Of a DNA stretch of 64,000 nucleotides, positions 16,175-47,770 are shown piece after piece. The translations under genes and the position numbers were made by a program. The DNA is from Aceticella autotrophica (lineage in GTDB: Bacteria; Bacillota; Thermoanaerobacteria; Thermoanaerobacterales; Thermoanaerobacteraceae), in assembly GCF_017357865.1 (NCBI RefSeq), contig NZ_CP060096.1, forward strand, positions 868,001 to 932,000, in the 5' to 3' direction. Each line of letters starts with the position of its first letter. Position 1 is the first letter of the stretch. The notes under the pieces are model-generated. The model did not search any database, was not told where the DNA came from, and was given only the letters and a program-made list of their open reading frames with translations.

Positions 16175-18771
<2,597 letters not shown>

Positions 18772-19313: not shown

Positions 19314-19424
19314 AATATTTCTCTATATTTCTATTAACAAAATATATAATTAAGATGCTATTAGTATAAAGTAAATAATATTTTAGAAGGAGGTGCGTAA
19401 CAGCTACCTTATTTCCGACAAATC

Positions 19425-19453
19425 TTGATAAAACATAATAAATATAATATAAT
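19425..19453 (+). promoter_or_regulatory. promoter of IS607 tnpA
   Basis: TTGATA at 19425-19430, 17-base spacer, perfect TATAAT at 19448-19453. It ends only six bases before the tnpA ATG, so a transcript from it would be leaderless or almost so. Confidence 0.65.
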
Positions 19454-19459
19454 GAATAT

Positions 19460-20110
19460 ATGGAATTATTAACTATAAGCAAAGCAGCAAAGAAAATAGG
19501 TGTCCATCCCAACAGCCTGCGTAACTGGGAGAAACAAGGTTTAATCAAGCCTGTCCGTTTGCCAAGTGGTCAGCGCCGATACTCCATAGACGAACTCAAC
19601 AAGCTATTGCAGTCCGGACAGATAAACACTGGGCAGGAAGACGTTGTTTTATATGCCCGGGTATCCACCAAAAAGCAGGCAGATGCCGGCAATTTATACA
19701 GACAACTGGAAAGACTGAGGCAATATGCTAATGAATCAAATTACCATGTTGTTGCCGAGTTCACCGACGCAGCCAGCGGCTTAAATCAGAAGCGCCGTGG
19801 ATTGACAAATGTATTCAAGCTGGCTGAACGTGGTGAATACAAGAAGCTTATCATCGAATATCCCGACCGACTGACACGATTTGGGTATTCATACATCGAA
19901 CGGCATTTGCATTATTGTGGTGTAGAGGTAATTGCCACATCTGAGAAAGAATTAGAAGACGCACAATCCGAGCTGGTCAGGGACTTATTGGCGATAATCA
20001 CTTCTTTTTCAGCTAAGCTGTATGGCACCAGAGGAGGTAAGAAGATAAGGCAGGGTTTCCGGGAACTGATAACGGAGGTGAAGTCAGATGAAGAAAAGGA
20101 AAAAGAATAA
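19460..20110 (+). CDS. tnpA: IS607-family serine recombinase TnpA
   Basis: 216 residues. Residues 1-50 are a MerR-like helix-turn-helix (LTISKAAKKIGVHPNSLRNWEKQG). The resolvase domain follows with the catalytic Ser in YARVSTKKQ (about residue 70) and the Arg-rich YPDRLTRFGYSYIERH. Length is that of IS607 TnpA. It needs no host sequence duplication and inserts via a circular intermediate in its family. The gene overlaps the start of the TnpB-related gene by 23 bases, normal for IS607. No ribosome site is seen before ATG 19460. Confidence 0.92.
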   Translation: MELLTISKAAKKIGVHPNSLRNWEKQGLIKPVRLPSGQRRYSIDELNKLLQSGQINTGQEDVVLYARVSTKKQADAGNLYRQLERLRQYANESNYHVVAEFTDAASGLNQKRRGLTNVFKLAERGEYKKLIIEYPDRLTRFGYSYIERHLHYCGVEVIATSEKELEDAQSELVRDLLAIITSFSAKLYGTRGGKKIRQGFRELITEVKSDEEKEKE

Positions 20111-21784
20111 TTCATACAGCCCTGACGGTGATAAAAACACCGTTTGCGGTGAATTTTTCCCGGAAACCTACCCTGCCTTACGTTCAAAAAAGTGGAGCCG
20201 TGGGATGGAGGACCCGCTAAATACCGAGATGAGATTGTTCTGCTCTTGTACTCGCTGGGCGTTCAACCGGCTGCAAGAAGATAAATCACGTGAAGAACTA
20301 AAAAAAGAAGGTCAGCAGGTATTTGGCTTAAACGTACGATACTGTGATGATGCCATACTGAAAGCCAAAGCCATAATCGAATCTCAAAAAGAGCTTTTAA
20401 AAATGGAAAAAGAAGAAACAAAAACAAAACTGACCCGTGCGAAGAAGAAACTCAGTTGGGCAGAAAAAACCTTAGATAAAGCTGTTGAAAAAAACGATTT
20501 GGAAAAAATCAAAAATCTTAAACGCACTGTACATGGTCGCAAAGCCAGAATGAAAAAACTATCTGACAAACTAAATGAGCTAAAGGTTCACGAAGACAAT
20601 GGCACCATACCTACAGTAGTCTTTGGTGGTCATTCTTTGTGGAAGAAAGTTTGCAAAGGCAGGATTCCGATAGAAGAATGGAAACAGGCGCGTCAAGACA
20701 GGTTATATTCCCGCGGAGACAAGACCAAAGGCGGCAACCCGAACATCAAGATAAGCGAATATGACGGAGAATTCTTTTTATCAGTAACCATTTCTCACCT
20801 GTCTGAGCAAAAGGATGTAGATATTAAAGGCAGACCCATAATGACAAGAGCGCCTCATGTAGAAGGAAAGCTGTGGCTGCCGGACAAATACCGTTCAAAG
20901 GTATATGAATTACTTTTGTCTGGTGCACCTTATACAGTAGAACTTATCAAAGGCAAGGATGACAGGTACAGGGGACATATCAGTTTCGACTTAACACCAC
21001 CTGATTTAATAACTAATCCCGACTATGGATATTTAGGTATGGATACCAACCCTGACGGAGTAGCGCTTGCAAATGTCAGTTATACCGGTCAGCCGGAACC
21101 ATGGGCAGAGAATTTTAACGTATCATACCCAAAAGCCCTGCACAAATTTGACGGTGAATTTCAAGTAAAGATACATCCGAATGGTTTTCTTTACATCAAG
21201 ATACCCGAACTATCTTACAGTTGTGGATATCGGCGTACTTACTTAATCGGAGTATTAGCCAAGATAGTGGTAGACATCGCTAAAACATTGGGTAAACCTA
21301 TAGCCTTAGAAAAACTGGAGTTTGGTAGACCTATGGATACCAAAAAAAATTCAACCGCATGGCAGCCAATTTCCCTTTCAAGAAGATGATTGAAGCCGTC
21401 ATACGCAGGGCTTTCAAGGAAGGCGTAGGCATAAAGCAAGTCTGGTCGGCACACACATCAACCATAGGTTACTGGAAGTACATGGAGAAATACGGCATAA
21501 CTATCCATCATGCCGCAGCGCTGGTAATAGCACGGCGTGCACTGAATTACAAAGAACATATAACAAAAGAATTAAAACAGAAAGTTCAAGTCTTTAAAGA
21601 GAAGCTGAATCAAAAGGCAAATTCCTTACCTGGGGAAGGAAGAGGGATGACCCGAAAGGTAAAGCAGCTCTTCAAGCGGTTAGATGGAAAAATTCTTAAT
21701 TTTAACGGTTTAACCCGTTTCAAACAGGAATCATTCTATTCCGTCTGGCATGACTTGAAGATTCTTGCTTTATCAAGTAGGTGA
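20088..21784 (+). pseudogene. tnpB: TnpB-related protein, split by a -1 frameshift at A8
   Basis: Programmable-nuclease relative of IS200/IS605/IS607 elements. Frame 1 (20088-21389) carries a coiled, Lys-rich insert (about residues 100-165), RuvC-I DYGYLGMDTNPDGVALA and RuvC-II PIALEKLEFG. At the run of eight A (21342-21349) the frame is lost; the -1 frame continues as KKFNRMAANFPFKK and runs to 21784 with RuvC-III-like GITIHHAAALVIARR, where a His stands near the usual Asp. Together about 565 residues. A_AAA_AAA is a slippery sequence, so -1 frameshifting could make the whole protein; a simple base gain is the alternative. The canonical C-terminal CxxC zinc ribbon is absent. Confidence 0.75.
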
Positions 21785-22040
21785 CCCCGTTTAGCCGGAG
21801 TACGGGAACAACCGGCAAGTCTAATCTAACAGATTGCGGGAGGCAGACTACAGTCTCGCTTAACGGTCAACGCAGGACGGAAACCTTTGTGGTTTTTCAT
21901 ATGTCCGTGTTTTGCGCCCGTAAAGCGCCGTTCTCCCGTCCGGGTGGGACTCCCGGGACTAAGGTCTCCCTGTCGCCCCAGAGAAAAAATTTTTCAAGGA
22001 GGTGTAAAACCTGGTCATGGGGAGGCCGGGTTTACAAAAG
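21785..22040 (+). ncRNA. candidate omega-RNA at the 3' end of the IS607 element
   Basis: GC-rich block right after the TnpB stop with many possible stems: CCCGT...ACGGG (21786-21806), GCCGG with CCGGC (pseudoknot-like), AATCT-AAC-AGATT inside GTCT...AGAC, GTCCGGG...CCCGGGAC near 21938-21960, and a terminal stem GTAAAACCTGG (22003-22013) with CCGGGTTTAC (22026-22035). TnpB nucleases use an RNA made from this part of the element. An 87-codon open frame across it (21781-22044) has no protein-like composition and is set aside. Function is inferred from position and structure. Confidence 0.5.
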
Positions 22041-22086
22041 TTAATTATTGTTATGTATTGTGAACTTTTTTGAACCAGGAAGTTGT

Positions 22087-23052
22087 ATGAATAGTGTATC
22101 GTCTCTATCTTCTATTGTAGGTACAGTTTTTACGATTATATTTTTTATTGAGGCTATTTGGTGGATAGTATGGATGGTCATATCAGCGACAAGAAAGATT
22201 TTTGCCAATTTTTATTTCATGCTTATATTATTTATTATATGGGGAATTATTGACATAATATTGTTAAGAAATCCATCAACAGCATTTTCTTTGTTATATA
22301 TCTTTTTAGCATGCATACCATTTATTATTCTTCCAGGGATGGTAAAGATTATTACAGAATATCAAAGGGGTGTGCTTTTCCGTTTTGGTAAGTTATCAGG
22401 TTTGTTAGGCTCCGGTTTTAATGTTATATTTCCATTTGGAATTGACAAAGTAATAAAAGTTGATTTAAGAACGTTTACAATTGATGTTGCCAAACAAGAA
22501 GTTATAACCAGAGATAATGTACCTGTTAATGTTGATGCTGTTGTATATTTTAACGTATTTGATCCTATACTTGCGATAACAAAAGTAGCAGATTATACAC
22601 ATAGTACAACACTGCTTGGACAGACGATATTGAGGTCAATACTTGGACAGCATGAACTTGATGATATGCTTTCAAAACGCGCTGAAATGAATGAAAAATT
22701 GAGAGAACTTTTAGACGAAGCAACAGATCCTTGGGGTATAAAAGTAACAATGGTAGAAATAAAAAGTGTTGAGCTTCCGGAAACCATGAAAAGGGCAATG
22801 GCAAAACAAGCTGAGGCAGAAAGAGAAAGACGTGCTAAGGTTATATCAGCTGACGGCGAATTTCAGGCATCACAGAAACTTATGGAAGCGGCGGCGGTTA
22901 TATCAAAAGAACCTGCAGCCTTGCAGCTGAGATACTTACAAACCTTGCCGGAAATTGCGGCTGAAAAGAATTCTACAATATTGTTCCCCTTTCCAATCGA
23001 ACTTTTTGATGTGTTTTTAAAGATGAGTAATCATGATAAAAAGGATGGATAA
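22087..23052 (+). CDS. slipin / SPFH (band 7) membrane protein
   Basis: About 321 residues. Three hydrophobic segments fill the first 95 residues. Then comes an SPFH/stomatin domain: EYQRGVLFRFGKLSG, GFNVIFPFGIDKVIKVDLRT, VITRDNVPVNVDAVVYF, TTLLGQTILRSILGQHELDDMLSKR, and a coiled Ala/Glu stretch (AKQAEAERERRAKVISADGE). Slipins organise lipid microdomains and often pair with a NfeD protease, which is absent here. Start: the frame is open from 22048, but ATG 22087 follows CAGGAAG and gives the natural N-terminus; 22048 lies against the IS607 tail. Confidence 0.9.
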   Translation: MNSVSSLSSIVGTVFTIIFFIEAIWWIVWMVISATRKIFANFYFMLILFIIWGIIDIILLRNPSTAFSLLYIFLACIPFIILPGMVKIITEYQRGVLFRFGKLSGLLGSGFNVIFPFGIDKVIKVDLRTFTIDVAKQEVITRDNVPVNVDAVVYFNVFDPILAITKVADYTHSTTLLGQTILRSILGQHELDDMLSKRAEMNEKLRELLDEATDPWGIKVTMVEIKSVELPETMKRAMAKQAEAERERRAKVISADGEFQASQKLMEAAAVISKEPAALQLRYLQTLPEIAAEKNSTILFPFPIELFDVFLKMSNHDKKDG

Positions 23053-23545: not shown

Positions 23546-24427
23546 AAAATTATGCAGCCTTTGCAGCACACTATGGATTCTGGCCACAGCCATGCAGGGT
23601 TAGAATGCCAACAGATAAAGGCAAGGTAGAATCAAGTGTCGATTATGTAAAGGATAATTGCTTCAAAAGCAGAGACTTTGAAAATATCGATGAAGCTATT
23701 AATTTTTCAAGATTATGGCTTGATACCATTGCTAATGTAAGAATACATGGTACAACAAAAAAAGTTCCACTGGAAGTTTTCAAATCAATTGAAAAAGAAA
23801 AACTACTGCCCCTTCCAACAGAGGATTTTATTCTATCAAACTCTGTTAAATGTATAGTTAACACAAACTGCCACATATCCTATAATGGTAATTATTATTC
23901 AGTACCGTATGCTTACATAGGGCAAGAAGTTGATGCCATAATAGCAAATGGATTAATCAAGATATATTTTAAAGAAAAAGAAATAGCCCTTCATCCGTTA
24001 TGCACAGAGGATAAAGGGAGATATATAACAAATAATGAACATTATCCTTACAGTAAGAATATATCAAGCAAAGACATTTTGTCAAGGCAAAAAGAAGAAA
24101 TGAAAGAAATAGGCATACATGCCAATATGTTCTTTGAAAATTTTATACTTAAGGACAATCTCAAAAAAATATGACTACAGATCTATTTCAGGCATATTAT
24201 CATTAAGGAAACATTATAGTAACGAAGTAATAAGCAACGTATGTTTAAGAGCCATTTCATATAATGCATATAGCTATAAAATTGTAAAGAAGATATGCGA
24301 AAAAGGAATAATAGATCTTCCAATAGGCACAAATACGAGTTATATAAATCAAAACAAAACTTATGTTTCAAGGGATCTAAATGAATACAACAAACTCATA
24401 AATTTAGGAGAATTAAAAAATGAATGA
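23546..24427 (+). pseudogene. istA: IS21-family istA remnant, 5'-deleted and frameshifted
   Basis: C-terminal part of the IS21 transposase. Readable from about 23546 (NYAAFAAHYGFWPQPCRV), then TDKGKVESSVDYVKDN with the catalytic Glu. At an A7 run near 24163 the frame ends (24172-24174) and continues +1 as YDYRSISGILSLRKHYS to 24427. The N-terminal HTH and first catalytic Asp are missing. istB follows with an 8-base overlap. Confidence 0.85.
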
Positions 24428-24834
24428 TTTGTTAACTTACCAGTTAAAGGATTTAAAGCTATCAGGTATTATTAAAACACTCGAATCAAGAAATGAAGAA
24501 GCACTTAAAAACAGTTTATCATACATGGAATTCTTTGAGATGTTAATTAATGACGAAGTATTAAATAGACAGAATAACAACAATATCAAAAGAATTAACA
24601 AAGCAAGATTTCCACAGCATAAAACACTTGAAGAATATAATTTTAACTATCAGCCATCAATAAATAAAAGATTTATATATAACCTGGCAACCTGTGAATT
24701 TGTCCGCAAGAAAGAGAATGTGGTCTTTATAGGACCGCCAGGAACAGGCAAAAGTCATTTATCAATAGCACTTGGTTTAAAGGCAATATCACAAGGATAT
24801 AAAGTACTCTTTACCACAGTAAATGAAATGCTAG

Positions 24835-26742
24835 GAGTCCACTCGGAATCATCAATCATAAATTAACAAATATGTTATTGAAAGCCATATAATTTACAAA
24901 AAAATACTCCTAAACACACACGAAATAAGCACTTAAGAGGTATTTTTTATGGTATAATATAAATAATATAAAAAAAATGTGGTGATAAAAATGATAGGAA
25001 AAGCAGATAAACAAATGTCATTTTCAGATTATTGGTTACTTGGGAAAATTTCTGAAGTAAGTTATTATCATAGACTAAGAACATGGGTATTTAATAATCT
25101 TAATGAAGAAATGTTTCAGCCACTTTTCTCATACTATGGCAGAGAATCCATATCCCCAGTATATACATTTACAGCGATGCTGATACAATTTGAAAAAGGA
25201 TATTCTGATCGTGAAATGGAAGAAGAATCACGATTCGATGATAGAATTAAATATGCATTAACCGCACCACGGGATTTTGATGGAATAGATGCAGTAACAT
25301 TATGTGATCATAGAAAAAGACTGTTTAACAGTGAAATAGGAAAAGAAATATTTATTAAAACAATTAGTCAGGCAAAAGAAGTAGGACTGTTTAATAAAGA
25401 CAACTTACATATAATAGATTCATTCATGATTTGGGGCTCTTGTGCCAGACAAGATACTTACACTATGATATACCAAGGGATAAAGATGGTTCTCCGTTTC
25501 ATGAAGTTTTACGAAATGGAAGATGCATCAAAAAAAATACTGAAAAGAACAGATTATGAAGAAAATATCAAAAAACCCAAAATAGCATGGGAAAATGAAA
25601 AAGAAAAAGCAAAATTACTCGAAGAACTTGTTAAAGATGCACTATTACTTGTAGAAAATATAAAAACAAAAAAAGATATAAAAGATGATTTAAAAAAAGC
25701 AATTGAATTATTAGAAAGAATAGCATTACAAGATGTTGAAATAACAAACGATGGGCATGTAAAAATGATAAAAGGAACAGCGAAAGACAGAATAATATCA
25801 GTAGTAGATGACGAAATGCGCCATGGGAGAAAGACCTCATCGAAATTATCAGATGGATACAAAGCTGAAATTATAACAGGAGGAGAAAAAGGCTCAGTAG
25901 TAGTAGGAATAGAAGTCGATGGAGCAAATATAGCAGATGGTGAACATATGAGTGATCTTATAGAACAAAGCCGAAGAAACGGCGTTGATATAGATAAACT
26001 GTATGGAGATTGTGCATATAGTGACTTTGAAGAAATAGAAAAAAGGAAAGAAGAAGGAACAGATTTTTGCATTAGAGTACCGGAAGCAACAAATCCAAGT
26101 GGAGGATTTTCAAAAGAAGAATTCAAAATTGATTTAGAAAAAGGAACAGTAGAATGTCCCAACGGACACATAAAACAATTTGATACTGAAAAAACGCAAA
26201 AACATGAGCAAGTTACAGTAAAATTTAGAGCAGAAGAATGTAATGATTGTCCGCTAAAAGACCAATGTACAAAATCAAAAAAAGGGAGAACAATAAATAT
26301 ACATCCATATGAAAAAGAGATACAAGAACAAAGAGAATATCAAAAAACAGATGAATTTAAAGAAGACTATGCAAAAAGACCGAATGTAGAAAGAAACATA
26401 TCAGAACTTACCAGGCATGGCGGACGTAAAGGAAGGTATAGAGGGAAATTAAAAATAAGATGGCAAATGATAATGGTAGCAATAAACAATAATATCAAAG
26501 TAATAATGAAACATATTTCTAAAATTTGTAATAGACAAATTAAGAAGGGAGAAGTCTGCCCAAAAACGGCTTAAAGAATAGTTAATGAGATTAAAAATAG
26601 CAATAACAGATCAATAAAGCAGAACATACATATTAAAATCAATAACAAAGTCATATATATTTAGTTAAATAGAGATTATTCTGATAATTTTTGTGATGAT
26701 AAAAATTTTTAACCTGTAGATAAGCTCTTTCCGAGTGGACTC
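24835..26742 (+). mobile_element. IS1182-family insertion sequence with CTAG target duplication
   Basis: 1908 bases bounded by a perfect 14-base inverted repeat, GAGTCCACTCGGAA (24835-24848) and TTCCGAGTGGACTC (26729-26742). CTAG flanks it on both sides (24831-24834 and 26743-26746), a 4-base palindromic duplication. The insertion point restores istB exactly when removed. Confidence 0.92.
24991..26574 (+). CDS. IS1182-family transposase
   Basis: About 527 residues. N-terminal DUF772-type domain (YSDREMEEESRFDDRIKYAL), DDE core with DSFMIWGS (first Asp), LYGDCAYSDFEE (second Asp) and PNVERNISELTRHGGRKGRYRG (Glu), and the Cys cluster ECNDCPLKDQC before the last motif. GTG codons at 24979 and 24982 are in frame, but ATG 24991 follows GTGGTGATAAAA better. 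Apparently intact. Confidence 0.93.
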   Translation: MIGKADKQMSFSDYWLLGKISEVSYYHRLRTWVFNNLNEEMFQPLFSYYGRESISPVYTFTAMLIQFEKGYSDREMEEESRFDDRIKYALTAPRDFDGIDAVTLCDHRKRLFNSEIGKEIFIKTISQAKEVGLFNKDNLHIIDSFMIWGSCARQDTYTMIYQGIKMVLRFMKFYEMEDASKKILKRTDYEENIKKPKIAWENEKEKAKLLEELVKDALLLVENIKTKKDIKDDLKKAIELLERIALQDVEITNDGHVKMIKGTAKDRIISVVDDEMRHGRKTSSKLSDGYKAEIITGGEKGSVVVGIEVDGANIADGEHMSDLIEQSRRNGVDIDKLYGDCAYSDFEEIEKRKEEGTDFCIRVPEATNPSGGFSKEEFKIDLEKGTVECPNGHIKQFDTEKTQKHEQVTVKFRAEECNDCPLKDQCTKSKKGRTINIHPYEKEIQEQREYQKTDEFKEDYAKRPNVERNISELTRHGGRKGRYRGKLKIRWQMIMVAINNNIKVIMKHISKICNRQIKKGEVCPKTA

Positions 26743-47471: not shown

Positions 47472-47493
47472 ATAAGTAATCTATTATAAGCAG

Positions 47494-47643
47494 CTTTTAA
47501 GGTCCGAAAGGGTAATAGGGAAGGCGGTGAAAGTCCGCCGCAGCCCCCGCTACTGTAAGCAATGATGACGCTCAAATAACCACTGGGAAACCGGGAAGGT
47601 AGAGCTTAAGATGATTTGCAAGCCAGGAGACCTGCCTTAAAGT
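47494..47643 (+). promoter_or_regulatory. cobalamin (adenosylcobalamin) riboswitch
   Basis: Outer stem TTTAAGG/CCTTAAA; GGGAANNCGGTGAAAGTCCG-type core at about 47519-47541; GCAGCCCCCGCTACTGTAA (47542-47560); AACCACTGGGAAACCGGGAAGG (about 47578-47600, in parts); and the B12 box AGCCAGGAGACCTGCC (47621-47636). A stem ACCTTCGG (47653-47660) with CCGAAGGT (47699-47706) before TTAATTTTT may be the switching terminator. B12 binding should shut off the downstream operon. Confidence 0.93.
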
Positions 47644-47770
47644 TTGTAGTTCACCTTCGGAGGGAAGGATTGATATGTGTTATATCTATTGGCTTACCCC
47701 GAAGGTAGGTCTTAATTTTTGCAAATTTAAAATGATAAAATTTTTTAACAGGGAAGGAGCAAGTAAGGGA

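Follow-up and report, generated by a model that had tools for sequence, protein, structure and literature searches.

The stretch of the Aceticella autotrophica genome analysed here (64,000 nucleotides of contig NZ_CP060096.1, positions 868,001 to 932,000; hereafter the window) contains an IS607-type transposable element that encodes the serine transposase TnpA and a divergent TnpB, and tnpB is followed directly by a structured, GC-rich tail. We propose that this tail is very probably the scaffold of an omega-RNA, also called right-element RNA (reRNA), belonging to a divergent IS607-family TnpB system. The features of the locus, including the presumed target-adjacent motif (TAM) and the open reading frames (ORFs), are as follows.

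19389–19393, forward strand: GGAGG, the Shine-Dalgarno core of the interrupted gene, which is the target site and presumed TAM directly left of the element (53 of 57 family sites; empty sites)
19394–22079, forward strand: IS607-type element, including one copy of the shared GG at 22078–22079 (nine-copy alignment; empty sites in relatives)
19460–20110, forward strand: tnpA, IS607 serine transposase (NCBIfam transpos_IS607, E = 6e-56)
20088–21784, forward strand: tnpB, split by a frameshift near an A8 run at 21342–21349 into ORFs 20088–21389 and 21359–21784
21785–22079, forward strand: 3' part of the probable omega-RNA/reRNA scaffold, the 5' end of which may lie inside tnpB (conserved in 28 aligned tails; compensatory changes; covariance model)
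21794–21816, forward strand: hairpin GCCGG...CCGGC, conserved with little variation
21823–21835, forward strand: hairpin AAUC-UAACA-GAUU, which covaries
21940–21956, forward strand: hairpin CCGGG...CCCGG, invariant in alignment A4 and hence giving no covariation signal
21963–22027, forward strand: helix of GGUCUCCC (21963–21970) with GGGAGGCC (22020–22027), two pairs changed on both sides, 96.5% of cells paired
22010–22079, forward strand: pairing of CCUGGU (22010–22015) with the terminal ACCAGG (22074–22079), ending on the element boundary, 100% paired and virtually invariant
22030–22065, forward strand: hairpin of GUUUACA (22030–22036) with UGUGAAC (22059–22065), followed by six U (U6, 22066–22071)
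22080–22099, forward strand: putative guide AAGTTGTATGAATAGTGTAT, the first bases outside the element, running into a Band_7 gene (ATG at 22087–22089); length taken from the IS607 TnpB literature (PMC11061315)

The original prediction, made by a model from the letters of the window, had singled out positions 21785–22040, directly 3' of tnpB, as a candidate omega-RNA. The contrast in base composition that it described is confirmed, since the GC content of this block is 53.9%, compared with 28% in the 1 kb upstream and 34.5% in the 1 kb downstream. The mean per 256-nt stretch across the window is 33.6%, and the block exceeds 99.97% of these stretches. The block also adjoins the tnpB stop as described, with the ORF ending at 21784 and the block starting at 21785. 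At these coordinates, the folding energy differs only mildly from that of shuffled sequences (z = −1.81; 9 of 200 as good), a signal too weak to serve by itself as evidence of structure; with the corrected end at 22079 it improves to z = −2.58 (1 of 200 shuffles as good). The predicted stems are nevertheless present, and the real evidence for them is the compensatory changes in homologous tails. Covariation among related copies, which had been named as one of the checks to make, was sought and found.

In 74 distinct tails, the hairpin at 22030–22065 forms 6.78 of its 7 pairs, compared with 5.69 after permutation (maximum 5.96), and 5 of the 7 pairs change on both sides in alignment A4. The UAACA hairpin forms 3.54 of its 4 pairs, compared with 2.67 after permutation. 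The four-helix structure pairs in 94.6% of the cells of alignment A4, whereas shuffled data give 89.3%, and seven pairs are changed on both sides, with 4.5 expected. A pairing of GGGAG with the U-tract suggested by RNAalifold was dropped in favor of the covarying GGUCUCCC/GGGAGGCC helix. Because the potential CCUGGU/ACCAGG pairing crosses this helix, it would form a pseudoknot adjacent to the guide, closed by the six terminal bases of the element. A covariance model built from the last ~145 nt of the tail finds nine RNAs in the A. autotrophica genome, one per element, with no orphan copies outside elements there, and up to 19 RNAs per relative. The Rfam models, including those for RAGATH-18, the group I intron, and other ribozymes, have no match in the window element or in nine family loci.

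In many Firmicutes genomes, TnpBs of 58–77% identity are followed by homologous tails. These dozens of relatives are thermophilic, and the hosts include Carboxydocella, Desulfofundulus, Fervidicola, Thermovorax, Desulfovirgula, Hydrogenibacillus, and Symbiobacterium. Furthermore, a relative with a TnpB only 36% identical (L132) has a tail with the CCGGGTGGGACTCCCGGG motif and a GAACCAGG end. The predicted structured RNA thus accompanies this TnpB family even where protein identity has fallen to about 36%.

The element is present nine times in the 2.27-Mb genome. When the nine copies are aligned, the common sequence runs from just after ...GGAGG to ...TTTTTTGAACCAGG, and the copies diverge on both sides. 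Two empty sites in relatives agree with these limits: the joined flanks of locus L041 align without gaps to L148 through the junction of ATTATTGGAGG and CCAGTACAATG, and those of L074 align to L146 across the junction. Insertion therefore occurs at GG, with GG at both junctions and without target duplication, and the element spans about 19394–22079. The original prediction had placed the end of the element, with a terminal hairpin, near 22037. However, 22030–22036 is only the 5' arm of the last hairpin, the 3' arm of which lies at 22059–22065 and is followed by the remainder of the element to 22079. Likewise, the sequence proposed as the guide, TTAATTATTGTTATG, is element-internal (22041–22055) and common to the genomic copies. 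The assignment of the tail as an omega-RNA is well supported, but the element end and the guide had been misplaced by 42 nt. The guide would instead begin at about 22080 (AAGTTGTATGAATAG...) and be about 20 nt long, give or take one base at its start, because the flanking nucleotide is part of the scaffold in ISXfa1. It matches exactly only its own flank, and no second exact target was found in the genome. Two of the A. autotrophica copies (L008 and L009) are without tnpA and consist of tnpB and the RNA tail only. A 616-bp derivative in Carboxydocella (L177) has lost most of tnpB: only the last ~108 codons of the gene remain, between the left end and the RNA tail.

TnpA is readily assigned (NCBIfam transpos_IS607, 188.9 bits; cut-off 110). 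A near-consensus promoter, TTGATA-17-TATAAT, lies at 19425–19460; its end is 7 nt upstream of the tnpA ATG, and the tnpA mRNA may therefore be leaderless. The TnpB is more divergent. Pfam gave no TnpB family match, and the NCBIfam guided_TnpB match is weak (E = 3e-12, below the cut-off). Profile comparison matches the protein to Cas12f, and the AlphaFold model of a 75%-identical relative (L067) gives a Foldseek match to Cas12f with E = 4e-7 and low global TM-scores. Profile, NCBIfam, and predicted fold thus give weak but consistent indications of a TnpB/Cas12-type relationship. The predicted identity of the gene therefore holds as that of a divergent TnpB, although the window copy is frameshifted. 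The gene is intact in six of the nine genomic copies, with one in-frame stop each in L004 and L008, and the intact homolog L002 encodes a protein of 565 residues (P0001). Since six sister copies are intact, the frameshift at the A8 run must be either a genuine mutation or an error in sequencing the homopolymer.

The RuvC-I residue D319 and the RuvC-II residue E408 are invariant in this family, but an invariant histidine, H474, stands in place of the third acidic residue, so the D-E-D triad is absent. The histidine lies in an HxAAA motif where TnpB has DxNAA, a correspondence based on motif order rather than on structure coordinates. The zinc ribbon, with its two CxxC motifs, is also missing: 37 of 38 problem-free in-frame relatives have no CxxC, and none has a paired CxxC. 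Both changes extend to relatives of 31–38% identity. However, the third residue is also histidine in the active Thermus RuvC, where the H143D variant is more active (PMC3834835), and H983 takes this place in the RuvC site of Cas9 (PMC8112549). By analogy, a D-E-H site need not mean that the TnpB is inactive. Viral collections contained one remote TnpB relative and five exact 16-mer matches, which we judged to be compatible with chance.

The left flank ends in GGAGG in 53 of 57 family insertion sites. On the right, a start codon that opens at least 50 codons lies 5–13 nt past the boundary in 66 of 77 flanks (ATG in 48). Other GGAGG sequences in the same loci are followed by such a start codon in 188 of 711 cases (26%; ATG in 80), and GG sites in 6473 of 36,268. 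Thus, the copies lie between the Shine-Dalgarno sequence and the start codon, in one orientation. Loss by selection of insertions within genes may explain part of this start-site bias. TnpA alone has a preference limited to (G)GG, while the TAMs measured for IS607 TnpBs are AGGAG and GAGGG, with AGGAG in the RAGATH-18 IS607 TnpBs (PMC11061315). Since the preference for GGAGG goes beyond that of TnpA and equals published TAMs, the motif is best read as the TAM of the TnpB, as far as flanking sequences can tell. The literature searched, in which most subscription papers were lacking, contained no account of TnpB or IS607 elements that target Shine-Dalgarno sites. In two loci from different genomes, L029 and L042, the insertions are at an AAGGAGG motif (Lys-Glu-Ala) inside transposase-like genes, and we read the joined flanks as one frame through the gene. 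In Fervidicola (L104; 2529–5015) and Thermovorax (L105), the element (2.2 kb) lies just before valS, a location shared by the two genera. The valS gene is single-copy in both assemblies, and a T-box leader is located upstream of the element in L104.

We suggest the following mechanism. A transcript through the tail would run beyond 22079 and thereby gain flank sequence as a guide at its 3' end, in the window copy the opening bases of the downstream gene. With the scaffold bound, the TnpB would cut, or at least bind, the empty insertion site, where a GGAGG-type TAM precedes the guide sequence. When TnpA excises the element, a cut of the resealed site would allow repair to restore the copy, with a sister copy as template. 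An occupied site would be spared because its right junction reads CCAGG, not GGAGG. Since the GGAGG motif forms the core of the Shine-Dalgarno sequence and an insertion between it and the start codon leaves the coding sequence whole, surviving copies would be found in translation-initiation regions. As insertions of this family nearly always fall exactly within a host gene's ribosome-binding site, the guide of each copy would consist of the opening bases of the gene concerned. The RNA of the window copy could be served by the TnpB of intact sister copies.

The omega-RNA assignment is based on the right-end position of the tail, its co-conservation with TnpB, the compensatory changes, the potential terminal pseudoknot, and the TAM-like left flank. 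Several points weigh against it. The assignment is drawn from DNA sequence, and the permutation and shuffle controls do not remove the kinship of the sequences, which inflates them. The CCUGGU/ACCAGG pairing, being virtually invariant, is without covariation support. Cleavage is uncertain because of the histidine in the third RuvC position and the missing zinc ribbon. The last hairpin is followed by the U6 tract, a terminator-like arrangement that could stop transcription short of the guide; if termination were complete, no guide would be made. Finally, the conserved right end must also serve TnpA. The tail might serve only as the right-end DNA site for TnpA and as the terminator of tnpB transcription, and not as a guide RNA. 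Such an explanation would fit the last hairpin and U6 tract found in nearly all family members, the need of IS607 right ends to bind TnpA, and the conserved end of the TnpB-deleted 616-bp derivative, although the RNA kept in that derivative counts for an omega-RNA as well. However, the compensatory changes reach about 250 nt upstream, far past a terminator, and the GGAGG preference exceeds the GG needed by TnpA. Furthermore, the characterized IS607 TnpBs all use this region as guide RNA (PMC11061315 and the available passages of PMC10711439). We consider this explanation to be quite improbable.

A second alternative, which we also judge to be unlikely, is a TldR-like system, in which this omega-RNA would direct a TnpB deficient in cleavage to gene starts, and its binding there would repress or modulate host genes. 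TldRs are known RNA-guided regulators derived from TnpB (PMC13418256). The change of the RuvC-III Asp to His, the loss of the zinc ribbon throughout the clade, and guides that would begin at gene starts are what such a function would lead one to expect. On the other hand, the invariance of D319, E408, and H474 argues for a kept active site, as do the histidine residues of the Thermus and Cas9 RuvC sites; the elements are mobile, multi-copy, and equipped with tnpA, unlike a domesticated gene, and the window guide has no second exact target. The insertion before single-copy valS in two genera, behind a T-box leader in L104, could be accommodated by an IStron, in which the RNA of the element is removed from the host mRNA and the Shine-Dalgarno sequence is restored. 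We regard this as very improbable, since no group I intron or other Rfam ribozyme was detected in the window element or in nine family loci. Described IStrons carry the intron core on the 5' side, and fewer than 70 nt precede tnpA in the window element. An omega-RNA scaffold is thus our preferred assignment for the tail.

Among known systems, the closest parallels are found in IS607 elements. In the ISFba1-type TnpBs with RAGATH-18-derived reRNAs (PMC11061315), tnpB is likewise followed by a conserved structured RNA at the right end; that RNA contains pseudoknots, and the TAM is AGGAG in 18 of 22 strains, mostly Firmicutes, which the GGAGG here matches. However, the RAGATH-18 family is in Rfam and has no match here, and its TnpBs average 390 residues with D194/E290/D371, whereas the present protein has ~565 residues, a D/E/His site, and no zinc ribbon. 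Shine-Dalgarno sequences are not mentioned for the RAGATH-18 TnpBs (PMC11061315). According to passages of the report on ISXfa1 TnpB, an IS607 element of Xylella (PMC10711439), that system shares the GG crossover and a G-rich TAM (GGG), and it has a 3'-terminal pseudoknot, which is needed for activity there. These passages also describe a reRNA of ~150 nt that extends past the transposon end, with the right-flanking nucleotide belonging to the scaffold. The ISXfa1 RNA is different and its TAM shorter, and no link to Shine-Dalgarno sequences is reported in those passages. The potential terminal pseudoknot on the element boundary resembles those described for the ISXfa1 and ISFba1 reRNAs. The group B IStrons (BcISt1 type; PMC4227781) have an IS607-type TnpA, insertion after GG-ending sites including GAGG, a 3' end of GG, and no target duplication, but carry a self-splicing group I intron, which is not detectable here. 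Proteins of Thermus and Peptoclostridium annotated as 'IS200/IS605 family accessory protein TnpB-related protein' belong to the same superfamily but are distant, with 27–30% identity in the top matches. The system most likely works like an IS607 TnpB/reRNA system and is one; since its RNA scaffold is not in Rfam and its TnpB lacks the D-E-D triad and zinc ribbon, it would be a variant.

With this system, the IS607 group would gain a previously undescribed guide-RNA scaffold and, from thermophiles, a TnpB with a D-E-H site and no zinc ribbon. The insertion sites suggest a simple rule: a TAM resembling the Shine-Dalgarno sequence directs an RNA-guided element to translation starts, where it can insert while the coding sequence stays whole. 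It is possible, though rather doubtful, that we are dealing with an RNA-guided transposon family that addresses translation-initiation regions, characterized by a Shine-Dalgarno-core TAM, insertion in one orientation before the start codon, guides that are the 5' ends of host genes, a D-E-H TnpB or guided binder, and host genes, including single-copy valS, expressed through the element. This raises the question of how valS and other essential genes are expressed when 2.2 kb of element separate the leader from the start codon.

Elsewhere in the window, a TIGR03986-family type III CRISPR-associated RAMP protein is encoded a short way upstream of the element, at 16759–18771. Remnants of an IS21-type element (a Mu-transposase C-terminal domain and IstB), followed by a DDE transposase, are located at 23605–26574, and a cobalamin riboswitch is found at 47483–47653.
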